From Azospirillum lipoferum 4B (lineage in GTDB: Bacteria > Pseudomonadota > Alphaproteobacteria > Azospirillales > Azospirillaceae): 64,000 nt of DNA. Where the stretch lies: NCBI RefSeq assembly GCF_000283655.1, contig NC_016586.1:325001-389000 (forward strand). Reading direction: 5' to 3'. The notes below the pieces were generated by a model. It had not been told where the DNA came from and made no database searches. It was given only the letters and a program-made list of their open reading frames with translations. The translations under genes and the position numbers were made by a program. Position 1 is the stretch's first letter. The number at the start of each line of letters is the position of its first letter. This document shows positions 4,443-35,655 of the stretch, in pieces.

Positions 4443-4817
4443 TCACTCCTCCAGCGGCGGCAGGCGGGAAACGAAACGACCTTTGATCCCCTGGGGCCAT
4501 TGCTTGAACGGAACGATTCCGTCCGTGGTCGCCGCATAGGCGCGCAGATAGGCGGTCAGCGTTTCCGCCGTCGCCTCGTCCGGCGCGAAGTCGCCCAGCA
4601 CATAGCTCATCCGCCGGGCCGAGCGCACCGCGACGGCGCAAGGGCGCTTGCAGCTCATCAGGCAGCGCATCGGCCGCAGCCGCACCTGCGCCGCCAGATC
4701 GGGGGCGTCGGCCAGCATCCGCTCCATCAGCGCCACCAGCTCCGCCCCCGGACGGACGGCCTCCGGCGGGTCTTCCGGACGGCGGCAGGTTTCGCAGACG
4801 ACAAGCTCGACGGTCAT
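4443..4817 (-). CDS. DUF1636 family metal-binding-type protein
   Basis: A 124-residue protein starting MTVELVVCETCRRPEDPP, with a CxxC pair near the N-terminus and a second cysteine group (MRCLMSCKRPCAVAV, about residues 60-75). Together these four or five cysteines resemble the thin, ferredoxin-like metal site of DUF1636 proteins, which are often encoded near cobalamin or metallochaperone genes. No such genes are next to it here. The ATG at 4815-4817 begins the conserved part; an upstream in-frame extension to 4958 is not supported. It is divergent from the permease-kinase gene. Confidence 0.78.
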   Translation of the reverse strand: MTVELVVCETCRRPEDPPEAVRPGAELVALMERMLADAPDLAAQVRLRPMRCLMSCKRPCAVAVRSARRMSYVLGDFAPDEATAETLTAYLRAYAATTDGIVPFKQWPQGIKGRFVSRLPPLEE

Positions 4818-4951
4818 GATTCCGCTTTCGAAACAATGGCAGGGCATTGGGAGGGGGGATCGCGCACCCGCAGAGCTAGATTCCAACCTCCGCCCCGTCA
4901 ATGTCCGGGCGCTCCGCTGATGCCCCGTTCGCGGGCAGGAGAGGGAGACGC

Positions 4952-7900
4952 TTGCCAACCACCGCCAAACTCTCGACGATGCGGTCGGGCGGACTTCAGG
5001 GACGGAAACGGCGGACGGGCATGAGCGCGAGGCAACGGATTGTCCGTGAACGCCGGCAGTACAACCAGCTCGCCGCCGATCAGACCATGGAGGACTATGC
5101 GCTCCGCTACACGGCGGAGCGGGCGCGGCGCTGGACCGCCTGGCGCGTCGCCAACACCGCGCTCGGCGCCATCTCCTTCCTGGCCTGCGAGGCGATCGGC
5201 GCGGCGGTGACGCTGACCTACGGCTTCGAGAACGCCATGGCCGCCATCCTGGCGGTGGCGGTGCTCAGCATCCTGGTCGGGCTGCCCATCACCTACCATG
5301 CCGCCAAGGCCGGGGTGGACATCGACCTGCTGGCCCGCGGTGCCGGCTTCGGCTATCTCGGCTCCACCATCACCTCGCTGGTCTACGCCTCCTTCACCTT
5401 CATCCTGTTCTCCATCGAGGCCAGCATCATGTCGGCCGGGCTGACCATGGTGCTGGGCATTCCGGCCTCGCTCGCCCATGTCATCAGTTCGCTGGCGGTG
5501 ATCCCCATCGCCATCTACGGCATCCGCTTCATCAGCCGCATGCAATGGGCGACGCAGCCGGTGTGGATCCTGCTGCAATGCGTGCCGCTGGCCTATTTCT
5601 TCCTGCTCGACCGCGAAACCCTGGCGCAATGGACCTCGCTGCCGGGTGTCTATGCGCCCGACGGCGGGCTGTCGCTGCTGCCCTTCGGCATGGCGGCGTC
5701 GGTGCTGCTGTCGCTGTTGCCGCAGATCGGCGAGCAGGTGGACTATCTGCGCTTCCTGCCCTCCCAGGCCCGCATCGGCAAATTGCGCTGGTGGGCGGCG
5801 ATGCTGGCCGGCGGGCCGGGCTGGGTGCTGATCGGCAGCCTGAAGCTGGCGGCGGGCTCGCTGCTGGCCTTCCTGGCGCTGAAGCACGGCATGCCGGCGG
5901 CGGACGCGGTGCAGCCCAACAGCATGTATCACATGGCCTTCCTCGACGTGTTCGGCTCGCCCGCCGTGGCGCTGGCGCTGACCGGCATCTTCGTCGTGGT
6001 CTGCCAGATGAAGATCAACGTCACCAACGCCTATGCCGGCTCCATCGCCTGGTCGAACTTCTTCTCCCGCCTGACCCGCAGCCACCCCGGCCGCGTCGTC
6101 TGGCTGGTGTTCAACGTGCTGCTGGCGCTGCTGCTGATGGAGATCGGCATCCTCGGCGTGATCGAGAGTATCCTCGGCCTCTACGCCAACGTCGCGGTGG
6201 GCTGGCTGGGGGCGGTCGCCGCCGATCTCGCCATCAACAAGCCTCTCCGGTTCAGCCCGCCGGGGATCGAGTTCAAGCGCGCCCATCTCTACGACATCAA
6301 CCCGGTCGGCACCGGGGCGATGGGCCTGTCGGTGCTGTGCTCCACCACCGCCTTCTTCGGGCTGCTGGGGCCGGTTGCCCAGGCGCTGGCCCCCTTCATC
6401 GGGCTGGTGGTCGCCTTCGCCGCCGCGCCGCTGATCGCCTGGAAAACCAAGGGCCGCTACTACATCGCCCGCAAGTCGGACAAGCTGCCCGGCGATGCCG
6501 CGACCATCCGCTGTTCGATCTGCGAGAATCATTTCGAACGGCCGGACATGGCCTTCTGCCCGGCCTACGACGCGCCGATCTGCTCGCTCTGCTGCACGCT
6601 GGAGGCGCGCTGCCACGATTTGTGCAAGACCGACAGCCGCTTCGCCGACCAGATCGCCCACAGCCTGCAACGGGTCCTGCCCAAGCGCATGGCCGCCGGG
6701 GTCCACACCCGCACCGGCCATTTCATCGGGGTGATGACGCTGTTCTCGCTGGTGCTGGGCGGGGTGCTGATCGTCATCGATTTCCAGTATGCCAATGCCG
6801 ACGCGGCGGAGCGGGCGGCGATCCACACCGCGCTGTCCGCTGTCTTCGTCTGCCTGTTCATCCTGTCCGGCGTCGCCGCCTGGCTGCTGGTGCTGGCCCA
6901 TGAAAGCCGCCGCAAGGCGGAGGAGGAGACCGCCCGCCAGACCGCCATGCTGATGGACGAGATCGCCGCCCACGAACGCACCGACGCCGCCCTGCAGAAG
7001 GCCAAGGAGGTGGCGGAGGCCGCCAATGCCGCCAAGAGCCGCTACATCATCGGCGTCAGCCACGAAATCCGCGCACCGCTCAACGCCATCTCCGGCTATG
7101 CCCAGCTTCTGGAAAGCAACAGCACCCAGCGTCCGCAGGACGCCGTCCGCGTCATCCGCCGCAGTGCGGAGCATCTGTCGAACCTGATCGACGGTCTGCT
7201 GGACATCTCCAAGATCGAATCGGGCCTGCGCCGGCTCAGCCGCGACAAGGTGCAGCTGATCGACTTCCTCGACCAGTTGGCCGACATGTTCCGCATCCAG
7301 GCAACCGCCAAGGGGCTGGAGTTTCGCTACGCCTGCGTGCCGCACCTGCCGGCCTGGGTCCACACCGACAGCAAGATTCTGCGCCAGATCCTGATCAACC
7401 TGCTGTCGAATGCGGTGAAATACACCGAGAGCGGCCATGTCGCCCTCAGCGTGCGCTACCGCAGCCAGATCGCCGAATTCGAGATCGCCGACAGCGGCAT
7501 CGGCATTCGGGAGGAGGACCTCGACCGCGTGTTCGAGCCCTTCGAGCGCGGGCGGGGGGCAGCGGTGCGGGCGGTGGCCGGCACCGGCCTCGGCCTCACC
7601 ATCACGCGGGTGCTGACCCGGATCATGGGCGGCGACATCGCCGTGCGCAGCACCCTGGGGCAGGGCAGCGTCTTCACCGTCCGCCTGTTGCTGTCGGAGG
7701 CGATGCACCGGCCGGGCGAGCAGGCGGAGCGGCGCTCAATCACCGGCTATGCCGGGCCGCAGATCACCATCCTGTTGGCCGACGACGACCGCGACCATCT
7801 GGCGCTGATGACCGACATCCTGCGCCCTCTCGGCTTCGTGCTGTTCACCGCGTCGGACGCCGCGTCCTGCCTGGAGCTGGCGGCGCAGTGCAAGCCGGAC

Positions 7901-8476
7901 CTCGCCATGCTCGACATCTCCATGCCGGGGGAGAGCGGTTGGGACGTGGCGGAGGAACTGCGCCGGCAGTTCGGCGACCGCATCCGCATCGTCATGGTGT
8001 CCGCCAACGCCTACGAGGTGCAGGGTCCGGGCGATGGCCGCGCCCCGCACGACGCCTTCGTCGCCAAGCCCATCGAGATCCACGCCCTGCTGGATCGGGT
8101 CCAGGCGCTGACCGGGCTGGAATGGATCCATGCCGCGGAAAAGCCGCCGGAACCGCTTGCGCCTGTGCCGGTGGCGGTCAAGGCTCCCGCTGCGGTCCCG
8201 GTGGTCGCCGCGACCCCCGCCCGGCCGCCGGACTCGGCGCTGCGTCATCTCGACGACCTGCGCCAGCTGGGCCGGATCGGGTACATTCGCGGGATCGAGG
8301 CCAAGCTGCGCGAGATCGAGGCGGAGGACGCGGCCGCCGCGCCCTTCGTCGAACGGCTGCGGACACTGGTGCGCGCCTTCGACCTGAAGGGCTATATGCG
8401 TGCGGTGGAAGAGGCCGCGGAAGGCGACGGCAAGGGACCGAAGGGAGAGGCAGTGGACGGGGCCGTGACAGGATGA
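4952..8476 (+). CDS. NCS1-permease / histidine kinase / receiver fusion protein
   Basis: This giant sensor of about 1,170 residues has four parts in order. First comes a 12-helix transporter of the NCS1 type (nucleobase/allantoin/hydantoin permeases), about residues 40-505, starting near ALRYTAERARRW. Next is a cysteine-rich insert (about 515-550: CSICENHFERP, CPAYDAPICSLCC, CHDLCK) able to bind zinc, then two more membrane helices (about 590-650). A HisKA/HATPase kinase follows (phospho-acceptor box SHEIRAPLNAISGY near 700; later DSGIGI and GTGLGLTI), and finally a receiver domain with acceptor Asp in MLDISMPG near 987 and a short helical tail. The layout parallels CbrA, where an SLC5 transporter is fused to a kinase, so transport and sensing are probably coupled; the ligand is unknown. 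I used the TTG at 4952 because GGAGAGGGAGACGC precedes it. In-frame ATGs at 4979 and 5021 are alternatives. It overlaps its LuxR-type partner by 4 bases. Confidence 0.88.
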   Translation: MPTTAKLSTMRSGGLQGRKRRTGMSARQRIVRERRQYNQLAADQTMEDYALRYTAERARRWTAWRVANTALGAISFLACEAIGAAVTLTYGFENAMAAILAVAVLSILVGLPITYHAAKAGVDIDLLARGAGFGYLGSTITSLVYASFTFILFSIEASIMSAGLTMVLGIPASLAHVISSLAVIPIAIYGIRFISRMQWATQPVWILLQCVPLAYFFLLDRETLAQWTSLPGVYAPDGGLSLLPFGMAASVLLSLLPQIGEQVDYLRFLPSQARIGKLRWWAAMLAGGPGWVLIGSLKLAAGSLLAFLALKHGMPAADAVQPNSMYHMAFLDVFGSPAVALALTGIFVVVCQMKINVTNAYAGSIAWSNFFSRLTRSHPGRVVWLVFNVLLALLLMEIGILGVIESILGLYANVAVGWLGAVAADLAINKPLRFSPPGIEFKRAHLYDINPVGTGAMGLSVLCSTTAFFGLLGPVAQALAPFIGLVVAFAAAPLIAWKTKGRYYIARKSDKLPGDAATIRCSICENHFERPDMAFCPAYDAPICSLCCTLEARCHDLCKTDSRFADQIAHSLQRVLPKRMAAGVHTRTGHFIGVMTLFSLVLGGVLIVIDFQYANADAAERAAIHTALSAVFVCLFILSGVAAWLLVLAHESRRKAEEETARQTAMLMDEIAAHERTDAALQKAKEVAEAANAAKSRYIIGVSHEIRAPLNAISGYAQLLESNSTQRPQDAVRVIRRSAEHLSNLIDGLLDISKIESGLRRLSRDKVQLIDFLDQLADMFRIQATAKGLEFRYACVPHLPAWVHTDSKILRQILINLLSNAVKYTESGHVALSVRYRSQIAEFEIADSGIGIREEDLDRVFEPFERGRGAAVRAVAGTGLGLTITRVLTRIMGGDIAVRSTLGQGSVFTVRLLLSEAMHRPGEQAERRSITGYAGPQITILLADDDRDHLALMTDILRPLGFVLFTASDAASCLELAAQCKPDLAMLDISMPGESGWDVAEELRRQFGDRIRIVMVSANAYEVQGPGDGRAPHDAFVAKPIEIHALLDRVQALTGLEWIHAAEKPPEPLAPVPVAVKAPAAVPVVAATPARPPDSALRHLDDLRQLGRIGYIRGIEAKLREIEAEDAAAAPFVERLRTLVRAFDLKGYMRAVEEAAEGDGKGPKGEAVDGAVTG

Positions 8477-9417
8477 AGCGCCGCGACATGATCCTGGTGG
8501 TGGACGACACCCCCGACACGCTGGGATTCCTGACGGAGGCCATCGAACAGGCCGACCTGACCGTGCTGGTTGCTGTCGACGGCGAAAGCGCGTTGGATCT
8601 GGTCGGCCAGATCACGCCGGACCTGATCCTGATGGATGCCGTCATGCCGGGGCTGGACGGTTTCGAGACCTGCCGGCGGCTGAAGCAGATTCCCCATTTG
8701 TCGCACCTGCCCGTGATCTTCATGACCGGCCTCAGCGACACCGAGCATGTGGTGAAGGGACTGGAGGCCGGCGGCGTCGATTACGTCACCAAGCCCATCG
8801 TGGTGGACGAGCTGATCGCCCGCATCCGCGTCCACCTGACCAACGCCCGCGTCGCCTACGGCGCCCGCGCGGCGCTGGACGCCACCGGCCGTTTCCTGCT
8901 GGCGACGGACGGGGAGGGAAGGCTGCTGTGGTGCACCCCCCAGGCGGAACGGCTGCTGGGCGGGCTGCTGCCGGGGGCGGACGGCGTGCGGCCGGAATTG
9001 GCCCCCAATTTGGCGGCCACGCTGGCGGCCGGTCTGGTCCGTCTGCGGCAGGCCACCAGCCCCGGCGCCGCGGCGGAGAGCTTCACGCTCGACCTGCCGG
9101 ACGGCGAGGGGGTGCGCCGGCTGGAATTCACCTATCTCAGCCCGGCCAACCCTGACGAATACCTGTTCCGCCTCAGCGAACCGGCCGCCGGCCGGCAGGA
9201 GGCGATCCTGCGCGACGCGCTGGGCCTGACCGTGCGCGAGGCGGAGGTCCTGCTGTGGATCGCCAACGGCAAGCCCAACCGGGATATCGGCGAGATCCTG
9301 GGCATCAGCCCGCGCACGGTTAACAAGCATCTGGAACAGGTTTTCGCCAAGCTGGGCGTGGAGAACCGAGCCTCCGCCGCGGCGCTGGCGATCCGCACCC
9401 TGGCGGCACGGGGGTGA
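8473..9417 (+). CDS. LuxR-family response regulator, partner of the permease-kinase
   Basis: A 314-residue regulator with an N-terminal receiver (acidic pair VVDDTPD, acceptor Asp near residue 56 in LMDAVMPGLDG, Lys in TKPIV). The middle region, about 135-235, is PAS-like and recalls PAS-LuxR proteins (ATDGEGRLLWCTPQAERLLG). The C-terminal LuxR/GerE helix-turn-helix runs from about 240 to 305 (LTVREAEVLLWIANGKPNRD, then SPRTVNKHLEQVFAKLGV). It should bind DNA when phosphorylated by the kinase encoded just upstream. The ATGA overlap indicates translational coupling. Its targets are not evident; no transporter or catabolic gene of the expected kind lies next to the pair. Confidence 0.9.
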   Translation: MKRRDMILVVDDTPDTLGFLTEAIEQADLTVLVAVDGESALDLVGQITPDLILMDAVMPGLDGFETCRRLKQIPHLSHLPVIFMTGLSDTEHVVKGLEAGGVDYVTKPIVVDELIARIRVHLTNARVAYGARAALDATGRFLLATDGEGRLLWCTPQAERLLGGLLPGADGVRPELAPNLAATLAAGLVRLRQATSPGAAAESFTLDLPDGEGVRRLEFTYLSPANPDEYLFRLSEPAAGRQEAILRDALGLTVREAEVLLWIANGKPNRDIGEILGISPRTVNKHLEQVFAKLGVENRASAAALAIRTLAARG

Positions 9418-9500: not shown

Positions 9501-9561
9501 CAGCAGCCGAAGGACATCCCATAGGATGTCACATGTGTTGCTGTGCTTGCAGAACTTCCTT

Positions 9562-9999
9562 ATGATCGACCGGATGAAGAGAGCTGTTCTCGACACCAAC
9601 ATTCTAACCGCAGGTTTGCGTAGCCGACGGGGCGCCTCATTTGCAGTGTTGAGTCTTCTTGCCGATGGCCAGTTCAGGGCGTTGGTGACCACTGCCCTGT
9701 TCCTGGAGTATGAGGCTGTGTTGAAGCGGCCCGAGCAACGCGAGGTTCACGGGCTTGGCGAGGCCGATGTAGATCGTTTGCTGGCCGAATTGGCCGCGGT
9801 CCTGGAGCCTGTGGACGTGCGTTTCACTTGGCGGCCCCAGCTTTCCGATCCGGCCGACGAGATGGTGCTGGAGGCTGCGGTCAATGGCAGAGCGGATGTG
9901 CTGGTGACCCACAATGTCCGGGATTTTGCCGCGGCCGCGCCGCGGTTTGGCATTCCGGTTCTCCGACCGGCCGAGTTCCTGCGAGGAGTGGCGACATGA
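9562..9999 (+). CDS. PIN-domain toxin (putative toxin-antitoxin ribonuclease)
   Basis: A 145-residue PIN protein of the COG1569 type. It opens with the first catalytic aspartate in RAVLDTNIL, has the later acidic positions in DPADEMVLEAA, and ends with the typical ADVLVTHNVRDF strand and last aspartate. PIN toxins cleave RNA using magnesium bound by these acidic residues. The gene overlaps the antitoxin-like gene by 4 bases (ATGA), with the toxin first. The start is uncertain: ATGs at 9562 and 9574 are in frame, and neither has a strong ribosome binding site, which would keep toxin expression low. Confidence 0.82.
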   Translation: MIDRMKRAVLDTNILTAGLRSRRGASFAVLSLLADGQFRALVTTALFLEYEAVLKRPEQREVHGLGEADVDRLLAELAAVLEPVDVRFTWRPQLSDPADEMVLEAAVNGRADVLVTHNVRDFAAAAPRFGIPVLRPAEFLRGVAT

Positions 10000-10328: not shown

Positions 10329-12599
10329 CTACACCCCCAATATCTTGTCCACCGTGATCGGCAGGTCGCAGAGGCGCTTGCCGGTGGCGTGGTAAATCGC
10401 GTTGGCGATGGCGGCGGGGACGCCGACGATGCCGATCTCGCCGACGCCCTTGGCGCCCAGCGGGTTGACGATGTCGTCATGCTCCTCGACGAAGATGACG
10501 TCGATGTCGTGGACGTCGGCGTTCACCGGGATGTGATACTCGGCGAAGTCGTGGTTCATGAAGCGGCCGAGCCGCTGGTCGGTCATCGACTCCTCCTCCA
10601 GCGCCATGCCGATGCCCCACACCACCGCCCCCAGCACCTGGCTGCGCGCCATCTTGGGGTTGATGATGCGGCCGGCGGCGACCGCGCTGACCACCCGCGT
10701 CACCTGCACGGTGCCGAGATCCTCGTCCACCCGCACCTCCGCGAAGATGGCGGAGTGGGTGCCGAGCGTGTGCTGCATCTGCGACTTGTAATAGGGGATG
10801 GAGCGCGCCTCGTCCTCCAGCACAAGCAGATCGTTGGCGCGCATCACCTCGGTGATCGACATCCGCCAGGACGGGTCGGCCTTGGCGATCAGGTGGCCGT
10901 CGGCGAAGACCAGATCGTCGGCCTTCAGCCCCTTCAGCGGCCCGTCGTTCAGCCCCACCGCCAAGCCGGCCAGCTTGTCGCGCAGCCGGTCGCAGACCGC
11001 CTTCACCGCCGAGCCGACCGACGATACCGTCCAGGAGCCGCCCTGCAGCGGCGCCATCGGCAGGTTGCTGTCGCCCAGCTGGAACGACACCCTGTCGATG
11101 GGCAGGCCCAGGATGTCGGCGGCGATCTGGGTCATCGCCGTGTAGGTGCCGGGGCCGATGTCGGCGGTGGCGCTGCCCACGACCAGCGTACCGTCGATGC
11201 CGAGCCGGGCGGAAGCCGCCGCCTGCCCCTGCATCGCATCCCACACGCCGGACGCCATGCCCCAGCCGATCAGCTGCCGCCCCTCCCGCATCGACCGCGG
11301 TGTATGGTTGCGCTTGTGCCAGCCGAAACGCTCCGCCCCCTGCTGGAAGCAGGCGCGCAGTTCCTTGCTGGAGAAGGGCTTGTCCGTGTTGGGATCGACC
11401 TCGGTGTAGTTCTTCAGCCGCAACTCCAGTGGGTCCATGCCCAGCTTGGCCGCCAGCTCGTCCATGGCGATTTCCAGCGCCGGGACGCCGGTCGCCGCAC
11501 CGGGGGCGCGCTGGTCGAGCGGGGTGTGGGTGTCCATCCGGGCCAGCTTGTAGTCGAGCCGGACATTGTCGCATTTGTACTGCTGGCCCGACCAGTTGAC
11601 GACGATCTCGACGTAGTTCTCGCTCTGCGAGGTCTCCTGCACCGCCTCGTGGATCATGGCGGTCAGCGTACCGTCCTTGCGGGCGCCCAGCGCCACGCGC
11701 TGCAGCGTTTCGGGCCGGTGGCCGAAGCTGAACATCTGCGGCCGCGACAGCTCCACCCGCACCGAACGCTTCAGCGTCGTCGCCGCCAGCACCGCCATGA
11801 ACAGCTGGTGCTGCGGCCGCAGGCCCGAGCCGAAGGCGCCGCCGACGAAGGGAGAGATCACCCGCACCGCGTCCTTCGACAGGTTGAAGACGTTGCAGAC
11901 ATAGGTCTGGGTGTTCAGCGGCCCCTGGGTCTTGTCATGGACGGTCAGGGTGCCGTCATTGTGGTAAATGACGGTGGAGGCGTGCATCTCCATCGGGTTG
12001 TGATGCTCGGCCGCCTGGGTGAAGTGCAGGTCGATGCTGACCTCCGCCTCGGCCAGCGCCCGGTCGGCGTCGCCGCGCGGCTTCGGCGGCGGCTGGAATC
12101 CGCCCTTGTCCTTGCCGGGGGTGAAGGCCTGGGCCTGCGCCGCATGCAGGTCGGTCTGGTGCTCCTCTGCCTCATAGACGACATGGATCAGGCGGGCGGC
12201 GTAGCGCGCCAGCTCGAAGCTCTCCGCCACCACCAGGGCGATGGGCTGGAGCGCATGGTGGATCGTCGCGTCGTACAGCGGGCGGAAGGGGGAGCCCTTG
12301 GGCGCGTCGTCGTCCTTCCACTTTCGGTCGAACCAGGGAAGGCTCGGCCGGTTCTCATGGGTGAAGACCTGGAACACGCCGGGCAGGGCCAGCGCCTTGG
12401 ACGTATCCATGCTCAGGATCCGGCCGCGGGCGATGGCGCTCGACAGGATGTAGCCGTGGGCGAGGCCGGGCGTGTTGAACTCCGCGGCGTATTTGGCGCC
12501 GCCGGTCACCTTCAGCCGGCCGTCGACGCGGCTGACGGGCTTGCCGATCTGCGCACCGGGATTGTCCAGCGGATCGGGGATGCTCGGTTTGGCGATCAT
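10329..12599 (-). CDS. aldehyde/xanthine dehydrogenase family, molybdopterin-binding subunit
   Basis: This 756-residue large subunit matches the PaoC/XdhA-type molybdenum subunit in length and pattern. The hammerhead a/b domain begins at GAKYAAEFNTPGLAHGYI. Molybdopterin-contact motifs follow, including GGAFGSG and the PAPGA-like substitute RAPGAATGVPALE. The segment with the catalytic glutamate is near the C-terminus (GAKGVGEIGIVGVP). The enzyme would hydroxylate aldehydes or N-heterocycles using water, passing electrons to the Fe-S and FAD subunits. The ATG at 12597-12599 overlaps the stop of the FAD subunit by 4 bases and has a GGAGTGGAGC site. No signal peptide is present, so it is probably cytosolic. 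The substrate cannot be told from the sequence. Confidence 0.93.
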   Translation of the reverse strand: MIAKPSIPDPLDNPGAQIGKPVSRVDGRLKVTGGAKYAAEFNTPGLAHGYILSSAIARGRILSMDTSKALALPGVFQVFTHENRPSLPWFDRKWKDDDAPKGSPFRPLYDATIHHALQPIALVVAESFELARYAARLIHVVYEAEEHQTDLHAAQAQAFTPGKDKGGFQPPPKPRGDADRALAEAEVSIDLHFTQAAEHHNPMEMHASTVIYHNDGTLTVHDKTQGPLNTQTYVCNVFNLSKDAVRVISPFVGGAFGSGLRPQHQLFMAVLAATTLKRSVRVELSRPQMFSFGHRPETLQRVALGARKDGTLTAMIHEAVQETSQSENYVEIVVNWSGQQYKCDNVRLDYKLARMDTHTPLDQRAPGAATGVPALEIAMDELAAKLGMDPLELRLKNYTEVDPNTDKPFSSKELRACFQQGAERFGWHKRNHTPRSMREGRQLIGWGMASGVWDAMQGQAAASARLGIDGTLVVGSATADIGPGTYTAMTQIAADILGLPIDRVSFQLGDSNLPMAPLQGGSWTVSSVGSAVKAVCDRLRDKLAGLAVGLNDGPLKGLKADDLVFADGHLIAKADPSWRMSITEVMRANDLLVLEDEARSIPYYKSQMQHTLGTHSAIFAEVRVDEDLGTVQVTRVVSAVAAGRIINPKMARSQVLGAVVWGIGMALEEESMTDQRLGRFMNHDFAEYHIPVNADVHDIDVIFVEEHDDIVNPLGAKGVGEIGIVGVPAAIANAIYHATGKRLCDLPITVDKILGV

Positions 12600-35447: not shown

Positions 35448-35655
35448 CCGTCCGTCGATGGTCTGGAATCCGACCGGGACCATGCCCGATCGCGATTGGA
35501 ATGCGAATTACGCCAAAGGTTTACGTCGGACGGCCTATGCCCTGCCCGCCGAAATCGGGACCTTTGCCGGATTGCTTTGCCGGTCTACTGTCTTCGGCCA
35601 TGCCCGGAAACTGGCAACGACCAGCCAGACCAACGACAAAGGGAGAGACGAGACG

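Follow-up and report, generated by a model that had tools for sequence, protein, structure and literature searches.

A permease-fused hybrid histidine kinase of Azospirillum lipoferum 4B resembles the NCS1 transporters in predicted fold and belongs to a family mostly encoded beside urea and amide genes

The stretch of DNA analyzed here, hereafter called the window, comprises 64,000 nucleotides of Azospirillum lipoferum 4B (contig NC_016586.1, positions 325,001 to 389,000 of the forward strand). It contains a gene for a hybrid histidine kinase whose N-terminal half is a predicted membrane permease, followed immediately by a gene for a LuxR-type response regulator. The features of the two genes, in window coordinates, are:

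5021-8476, plus strand: permease-fused hybrid histidine kinase of 1,151 amino acids (start from the alignment of relatives and the A. ramasamyi gene start)
5021-6490, plus strand: predicted NCS1-type permease domain of about 12 helices (residues 1-490)
6503-6628, plus strand: eight-cysteine module, residues 495-536, probably zinc-binding (cysteine conservation, 44/44)
6710-6886, plus strand: two extra helices, residues 564-622, probably transmembrane and running into the coiled coil of the kinase
7037-7693, plus strand: HisKA (7037-7225) and HATPase_c (7367-7693) domains with the phospho-acceptor His681 (Pfam)
7769-8101, plus strand: receiver domain of the hybrid kinase, with Asp965 (Pfam)
8473-9417, plus strand: response regulator with a receiver (8491-8829) and a LuxR/GerE DNA-binding domain (9226-9390) (Pfam)

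The kinase gene lies in an uninterrupted open frame (4901-8476, plus strand). Although a first-pass annotation, made from the sequence alone, placed its start at 4952, we consider 5021 the likely start, in preference to 4901 or 4952, because 44/45 kinase relatives align from residues 1-4 of a query that begins one codon after ATG 5021 (the lone exception, L039, is a split match), and because the gene annotated in the near-identical locus of A. ramasamyi starts at the equivalent position. The protein is clearly a hybrid histidine kinase: HisKA with its His, HATPase, and the receiver with its Asp are all present (Pfam E values 4e-16, 1e-25 and 3e-16, respectively), and His681 and Asp965 are conserved in 41/41 relatives examined, three truncated rows being excluded. 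Names suggested by NCBIfam kinase models (TorS, ArcB and others) were not used, since their scores lay under the models' own cut-offs. The kinase and regulator genes overlap by the 4 bases ATGA, in agreement with the first-pass annotation.

The permease domain had to be classified by structure and by bridging sequences, because searches of Pfam, NCBIfam and the PDB with the window permease alone gave no useful match. A Pfam scan of the whole protein found no domain above cut-off N-terminal to HisKA, and the NCS1 model PF02133 matched neither the whole protein at E 0.1 nor the permease segment at E 10. The predicted structure, on the other hand, had the NCS1 proteins CodB and Mhp1 as its top matches, and among LeuT-fold proteins its fold was nearest to the NCS1 structures. 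When a profile of 12 sequences (seven kinase permeases including that of the window, two stand-alone permeases and three distant permeases) was compared with the PDB, CodB and Mhp1 were the sole matches at E up to 1. A hidden Markov model of the kinase permeases, run against a five-sequence set, matched the distant permeases L113, L114 and L115 (2.8e-48, 8.1e-22 and 1.3e-12), and L113 and L115, but not L114, match PF02133 above cut-off; one stand-alone permease, L043, matched the cytosine permease model of NCBIfam with E 3e-4, well short of the cut-off. On the evidence of its predicted fold and of the bridging sequences the permease is a member of the NCS1 superfamily, as the first-pass annotation had proposed, although it does not match the Pfam model and departs from the aromatic-sandwich rule described below.

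The module that follows the permease contains Cys498, 501, 513, 521, 524, 525, 531 and 535, each conserved in 44/44 kinase relatives, of which 12 are closely related Azospirillum rows. It probably binds zinc, to judge from its CxxC pattern and from weak zinc-finger-like matches below cut-off; in isolation the module was predicted poorly (predicted template-modelling score, pTM, 0.41). The eight-cysteine insert seen in the first pass is therefore present and conserved, but it is not special to the kinase, since a stand-alone permease of Methylovirgula carries all eight cysteines at its C-terminal end. The stand-alone permeases of Acinetobacter, Moraxella, Klebsiella and Streptomyces have a shorter CxxC...CxxC ending, and most of the cysteines are missing from those of Tsukamurella and Arthrobacter. 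It seems that the module is an old tail of this permease branch, which now lies between permease and kinase, and that it was not invented by the fusion. Beyond it, the predicted structure has helices at residues 564-589 and 595-672, and the sequence of residues 564-622 is hydrophobic.

The fusion of permease, kinase and receiver in one protein recurs widely. Among 398 sampled genomes of one phylum, Pseudomonadota, 52 (about 13%) carry a permease-kinase of this family, the sample being centred on a genome (G002) chosen for having the kinase; one of the 52 is a contig fragment, and two loci encode shorter kinases without a receiver. The permease query itself matched 55/398 genomes, three of which hold only distant or fragmentary matches. 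It also matched 527/72,556 plasmid records, 342 of them from Klebsiella, with kinases and stand-alone permeases pooled. Known permease-kinases had been described in the first pass as few, and this fits the characterised transporter-kinase fusions but not the family of the window protein, which is common.

The genes around these kinases point to urea and short amides. We counted neighbours in 56 sampled kinase loci (of 58 kinase-type places, leaving out G002:C23, which is the same as L014, and the G231 fragment) over stretches that extend at most about 11 kb to each side. An amidase (FmdA, AmiE or AmiF) was found in 37, urease in 11 and only urt genes (for a urea-type ABC importer), at least two, in 7; the single unlabelled locus lies at a contig end. 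Of 20 further 18.5-kb loci, taken at random from these genomes, none carried an amidase, urease or urt label. The enzymes that recur, FmdA (PF03069), AmiE/AmiF (nitrilase-type enzymes) and urease, are of unrelated families. The 52 kinase-bearing genomes contain 42 fmdA genes with high scores (E below 1e-160), 39 of which have a permease-kinase at a distance of no more than 13 kb; 10 of these genomes have no PF03069 match. The urtA gene is divergent from the kinase and within 1.5 kb of it in 38/56 loci. In the two kinase-bearing Klebsiella plasmids that we opened (e.g. L045, 14998-18378), urtABCDE and a formamidase gene are likewise oriented divergently from the kinase. The view that the kinase has its own LuxR regulator also holds for the family, for a regulator resembling that of the window follows the kinase in 54/56 loci, by similarity. 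The two loci without it, L104 (6346-10156) and L108 (5898-9847), encode the permease-kinases of about 890 amino acids that lack a receiver; they lie near fmdA, and the adjoining open reading frame is a receiver plus HATPase by Pfam in L104 and receiver-like in L108, a different wiring of the same sensor.

A larger set of 109 rows was used for the tree and the labels (amide 49, urease 30, urt only 11, both 1, none 18); it includes three non-kinase rows (L043, L044, L113) and 13 rows of the Azospirillum clade that contains the window copy, and leaves out the duplicates L048-L084, the split match L039, the fragment L112 and the distant L114 and L115. Outside the non-kinase and window-clade rows, 89/93 kinase rows are labelled, the other four being L013 and L120, at contig ends, and L016 and L022. 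Since 18 rows come from one Marinomonas-type clade, we regard the 56 sampled-genome loci as the fairer set.

Similar neighbours are found around the stand-alone permeases of the same branch. We opened nine loci out of nineteen listed, and six have a urease or amidase nearby: the permease lies near urease in A. lwoffii, near fmdA in Tsukamurella and Moraxella, and near amiE in Arthrobacter U41, while in Klebsiella (L184, 7971-9578) it directly follows ureG and is annotated "cytosine permease", one of several relatives that bear this name or "allantoin permease". The L184 record has an insertion sequence between ureC and ureE. On a plasmid of Methylovirgula sp. HY1 (L185, 1648-11382) the order is fmdA, the kinase-regulator pair, a stand-alone permease and amiE, so that the sensor adjoins a relative of its own sensing domain, the permease with all eight cysteines. 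This fmdA-linked kinase, 60% identical to the window permease, came to light too late to be included in the tree.

The predicted binding pocket differs from that of the solved NCS1 proteins (papers are cited here for the parts of their text that were available). In CodB and Mhp1 two aromatic residues sandwich the ring of the ligand (PMC9379551, PMC4195764), and the CodB paper describes this pair as conserved through NCS1 (PMC9379551). In a profile alignment, the position of the Trp in transmembrane helix 3 (TM3; Mhp1 Trp117, CodB Trp108) is Phe in 84/107 kinases, Leu in 23/107 and Phe in 9/9 stand-alone permeases, so that the ring-stacking Trp is found in none of the 107 kinases, and the aromatic position of TM6 is Ala, Met, Ser, Thr, Val, Leu or Gly, the alignment being weak there. 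Asn333, Asn336 and Glu133 are invariant in the 107 kinases; in all of them the position of Mhp1 Gln121 is Glu and that of Mhp1 Asn318 is Asn. The two hydroxyl residues of TM8 at the Na2 site, presumably Ser312-Thr313 in Mhp1 (numbered from the alignment), are replaced by Lys-Ile, the Ile being Val in one kinase. In CodB they are Thr278-Thr279 (PMC9379551). The comparison with Mhp1 suggested in the first pass thus finds Asn318 kept and the Trp117, Gln121, Na2 and, by weak alignment, TM6 aromatic positions changed. These changes would fit a small, non-ring ligand and a permease independent of sodium. The split between Leu129 and Phe129 was not used as proof of a urea and an amide type, because many urease-linked kinases carry Phe; it is only loose, with 9 of the 10 Leu129 kinases outside the window clade urease- or urt-linked and one amide-linked.

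The amide-linked kinases share a palindrome in their upstream regions. An unbiased count of dyads in the 350 bp upstream found TACG-N8-CGTA in 34/48 of them, whereas the commonest dyad in one shuffled set occurred in 11/48. Within 450 bp the core is present in 35/48, and the extended site is ATACGY-N6-RCGTAT. A matrix trained on 40 sites from these 35 loci gave at least 14 bits in 42/48 amide-linked loci, which are mostly training loci and hence not an independent test; outside the amide set this score was reached in 5/11 urt-only loci, in 2/17 loci labelled none (both at contig ends) and in 0/1 labelled both. In the controls it was reached by 13/530 random 450-bp stretches of the same loci, some of which may overlap a true site, and by 0/530 stretches shuffled in two-base blocks. 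In the A. oryzae genome TACGY-N6-RCGTA occurs at two places only, the amide-linked operon and the inside of a PhoB-like coding gene, the latter discarded as chance; the same pattern read backwards occurs at 35 places. We infer that the palindrome is the binding site of the regulator in amide-linked loci. CrbR, the LuxR regulator of the analogous CrbS, uses an inverted repeat of another sequence (PMC5715377).

Taken with the gene context of the relatives, which also favours the "urea-like" member of the three ligand guesses made in the first pass, these features make it probable that the window protein is a sensor kinase for urea or short amides, using an NCS1-type permease and working in the manner of CbrA and Ks-Amt5. 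The permease domain, of a branch that would serve urea and short-chain amides such as formamide and acetamide, would bind the ligand; the resulting change of shape would reach the kinase by way of the cysteine module and the two extra helices and alter the phosphorylation of His681 and Asp965, and then that of the LuxR-type regulator. In many of the relatives, the regulator would probably activate the neighbouring importer and hydrolase operons (urtABCDE with fmdA, amiE or amiF, or urease), in the amide-linked ones via ATACGY-N6-RCGTAT. The window copy, which is specific to Azospirillum, keeps sensor and regulator but has no such operon beside it, so that its target would be either distant or new.

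Several observations weigh against this reading. From the linkage, urea cannot be told apart from formamide, acetamide or ammonium, the product of all three; many rows are closely related, so that the counts are not independent events; and three of the nine stand-alone loci (L180, L182 and L186, from Arthrobacter NicSoilB11, Streptomyces and A. baumannii) have no amidase or urease neighbours, the A. baumannii permease being divergent from a kinase-regulator pair. The pocket equivalences derive from a profile alignment whose TM6 part is weak. No histidine phosphotransfer (HPt) domain was matched by Pfam in kinase or regulator, and the C-terminal tail has no conserved His. The palindrome reaches 14 bits in only 1/29 urease-linked kinases and therefore cannot be an operator common to the entire family. 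For one such locus FmdB has been named a positive regulator of formamidase (PMC13209695), so that control of this enzyme may not lie with the kinase alone. Finally, none of the 13 Azospirillum rows has an amidase, urease or urt set (mostly about 8 kb on each side), nor a palindrome site above 5 bits in the 450 bp upstream of the kinase. The best site in the window itself, 13.9 bits at 35521, is distant, and five first-order Markov shuffles reach 11.9 bits; we therefore rejected the palindrome as the operator of the window copy.

These last points bear on whether the window copy has changed its function, keeping a urea- or amide-like ligand with unrelated target genes or having acquired a new ligand. 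We regard this as quite possible, while leaning somewhat against it. Together with the window copy, the Azospirillum rows form a tight clade of 13 in which the permease is well conserved, at 90-98% identity (97% with A. ramasamyi and 98% with strain B21), although the linkage is missing from all 13; and A. oryzae has an additional, amide-linked kinase, 57% identical, with the palindrome at one of the only two pattern sites of its genome. Nevertheless, the helix-turn-helix region of the window regulator is close to that of the amide-linked regulators, and the invariant pocket residues are retained. In one quick tree run the nearest row outside Azospirillum was Methylovirgula (urease and urtABCDE; 97% by the Shimodaira-Hasegawa-like approximate likelihood ratio test, SH-aLRT), followed by Niveispirillum (urt) and Methylosinus (urease and urt; 100% SH-aLRT), and the window copy shares Leu129 with all three. 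Because the clade has no urea or amide neighbours while its nearest relatives are urea-linked, we think that the window copy kept its sensing and changed or lost its local target.

The place that urtA takes in many relatives is occupied in the window by another divergent gene:

4443-4817, minus strand: DUF1636 gene, divergent from the kinase

It is divergent from the kinase in A. ramasamyi as well. On the other side, a gene of the xanthine-dehydrogenase family lies at 10329-12599, and one is present near the A. ramasamyi copy too. The interval between the regulator and the xanthine-dehydrogenase-family operon holds, at 9526-9999, a gene for a PIN-domain protein (PF13470, E 4e-23) and, after it, a small open reading frame that overlaps it. 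The segment looks like a toxin-antitoxin-like insertion, since the same interval is only about 120 bp in A. ramasamyi (L047); the small frame, which has no Pfam match, is a guess for the antitoxin.

It is also conceivable, though we consider it unlikely, that the sensor reads transport flux or the ammonium status instead of the binding of a ligand. The transporter domain of CbrA does transport histidine (PMC7918813), and transport may persist in the present family as well, because 81 of the 121 positions near-invariant in the kinases are kept in at least eight of the nine stand-alone permeases; on the other hand, eight near-invariant kinase positions (e.g. Glu57 and Ala339) are absent from all nine. 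A nucleobase or hydantoin sensor, the ligand class put forward first in the first-pass annotation, is very improbable: it would suit the NCS1 fold with CodB and Mhp1 as the closest solved structures, the permease names given to some stand-alone relatives and the xanthine-dehydrogenase-family gene near the window and A. ramasamyi copies, but that family is broad, the kinases are linked to genes for amidases, urease and Urt proteins, the annotated relatives that we opened show no purine or hydantoin gene next to the kinase (other loci were not searched for such genes), and the ring-stacking Trp is missing from every kinase and stand-alone permease aligned.

As a sensor of urea or short amides, the window protein would resemble the known proteins in which a transporter domain feeds a kinase, namely CbrA, CrbS and Ks-Amt5 (PMC7918813, PMC5715377, PMC5764959, PMC13022988). 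CbrA and CrbS/MxtR, the SLC5-STAC kinases, likewise join an N-terminal transporter to a histidine kinase; a receiver is present in MxtR/CrbS too, whose partner CrbR is a LuxR-family regulator (PMC7918813, PMC5715377). The window protein differs in that its best structural matches are NCS1 and not SLC5 proteins, consistent with the earlier description of a CbrA-like layout with another transporter fold, in the cysteine module and two helices between permease and kinase, and in the urea and amide genes beside its relatives. Ks-Amt5 similarly reuses the transporter domain of a nitrogen nutrient as a sensor, although its Amt module is of an unrelated transporter family and no receiver is mentioned in the available text (PMC5764959). 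CodB and Mhp1 share with the window permease the predicted fold, the bridged sequence homology and the Asn at the Mhp1 Asn318 position, whereas the sandwich Trp has become Phe or Leu, the Na2 hydroxyls have become Lys-Ile, and a cysteine tail and a fused kinase are added. The operons adjoining the family are of the kind described as urt-formamidase loci, including the Klebsiella UTS (urtABC-amiF) (PMC13060141, PMC13209695), which has been linked to urea (PMC13060141). In the available text of PMC13060141 the terms "histidine kinase" and "two-component" occur 0 times, as do "histidine kinase" and "response regulator" in that of PMC13209695, which describes the Pseudomonas locus as lacking amiC and amiR. 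Our literature search turned up no title or opening of an abstract that describes an NCS1-type permease-histidine kinase, which is a weak negative because most subscription papers lie outside that search.

We are almost evenly divided over a broader proposal, in which a new NCS1-type branch, having lost the aromatic pair and gained an invariant Lys in the Na2 site, would transport urea and short amides independently of sodium. It would do so in stand-alone transporters, the gene directly after ureG in Klebsiella among them, and would also provide the sensor of a widespread kinase family whose control of urt-formamidase and urease loci, some of them on Klebsiella plasmids, has so far gone unnoticed. 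The urea- or amide-sensing function would add a third transporter family, the NCS1 type, to the SLC5 and Amt families found in such sensors, with a concrete and testable class of ligands. It also offers a candidate regulator for the uptake genes of urea and formamide, and a candidate operator for the amide-linked loci. The stand-alone relatives, moreover, suggest that genes annotated as "cytosine" or "allantoin permease" beside urease or amidases may encode transporters of urea or amides.

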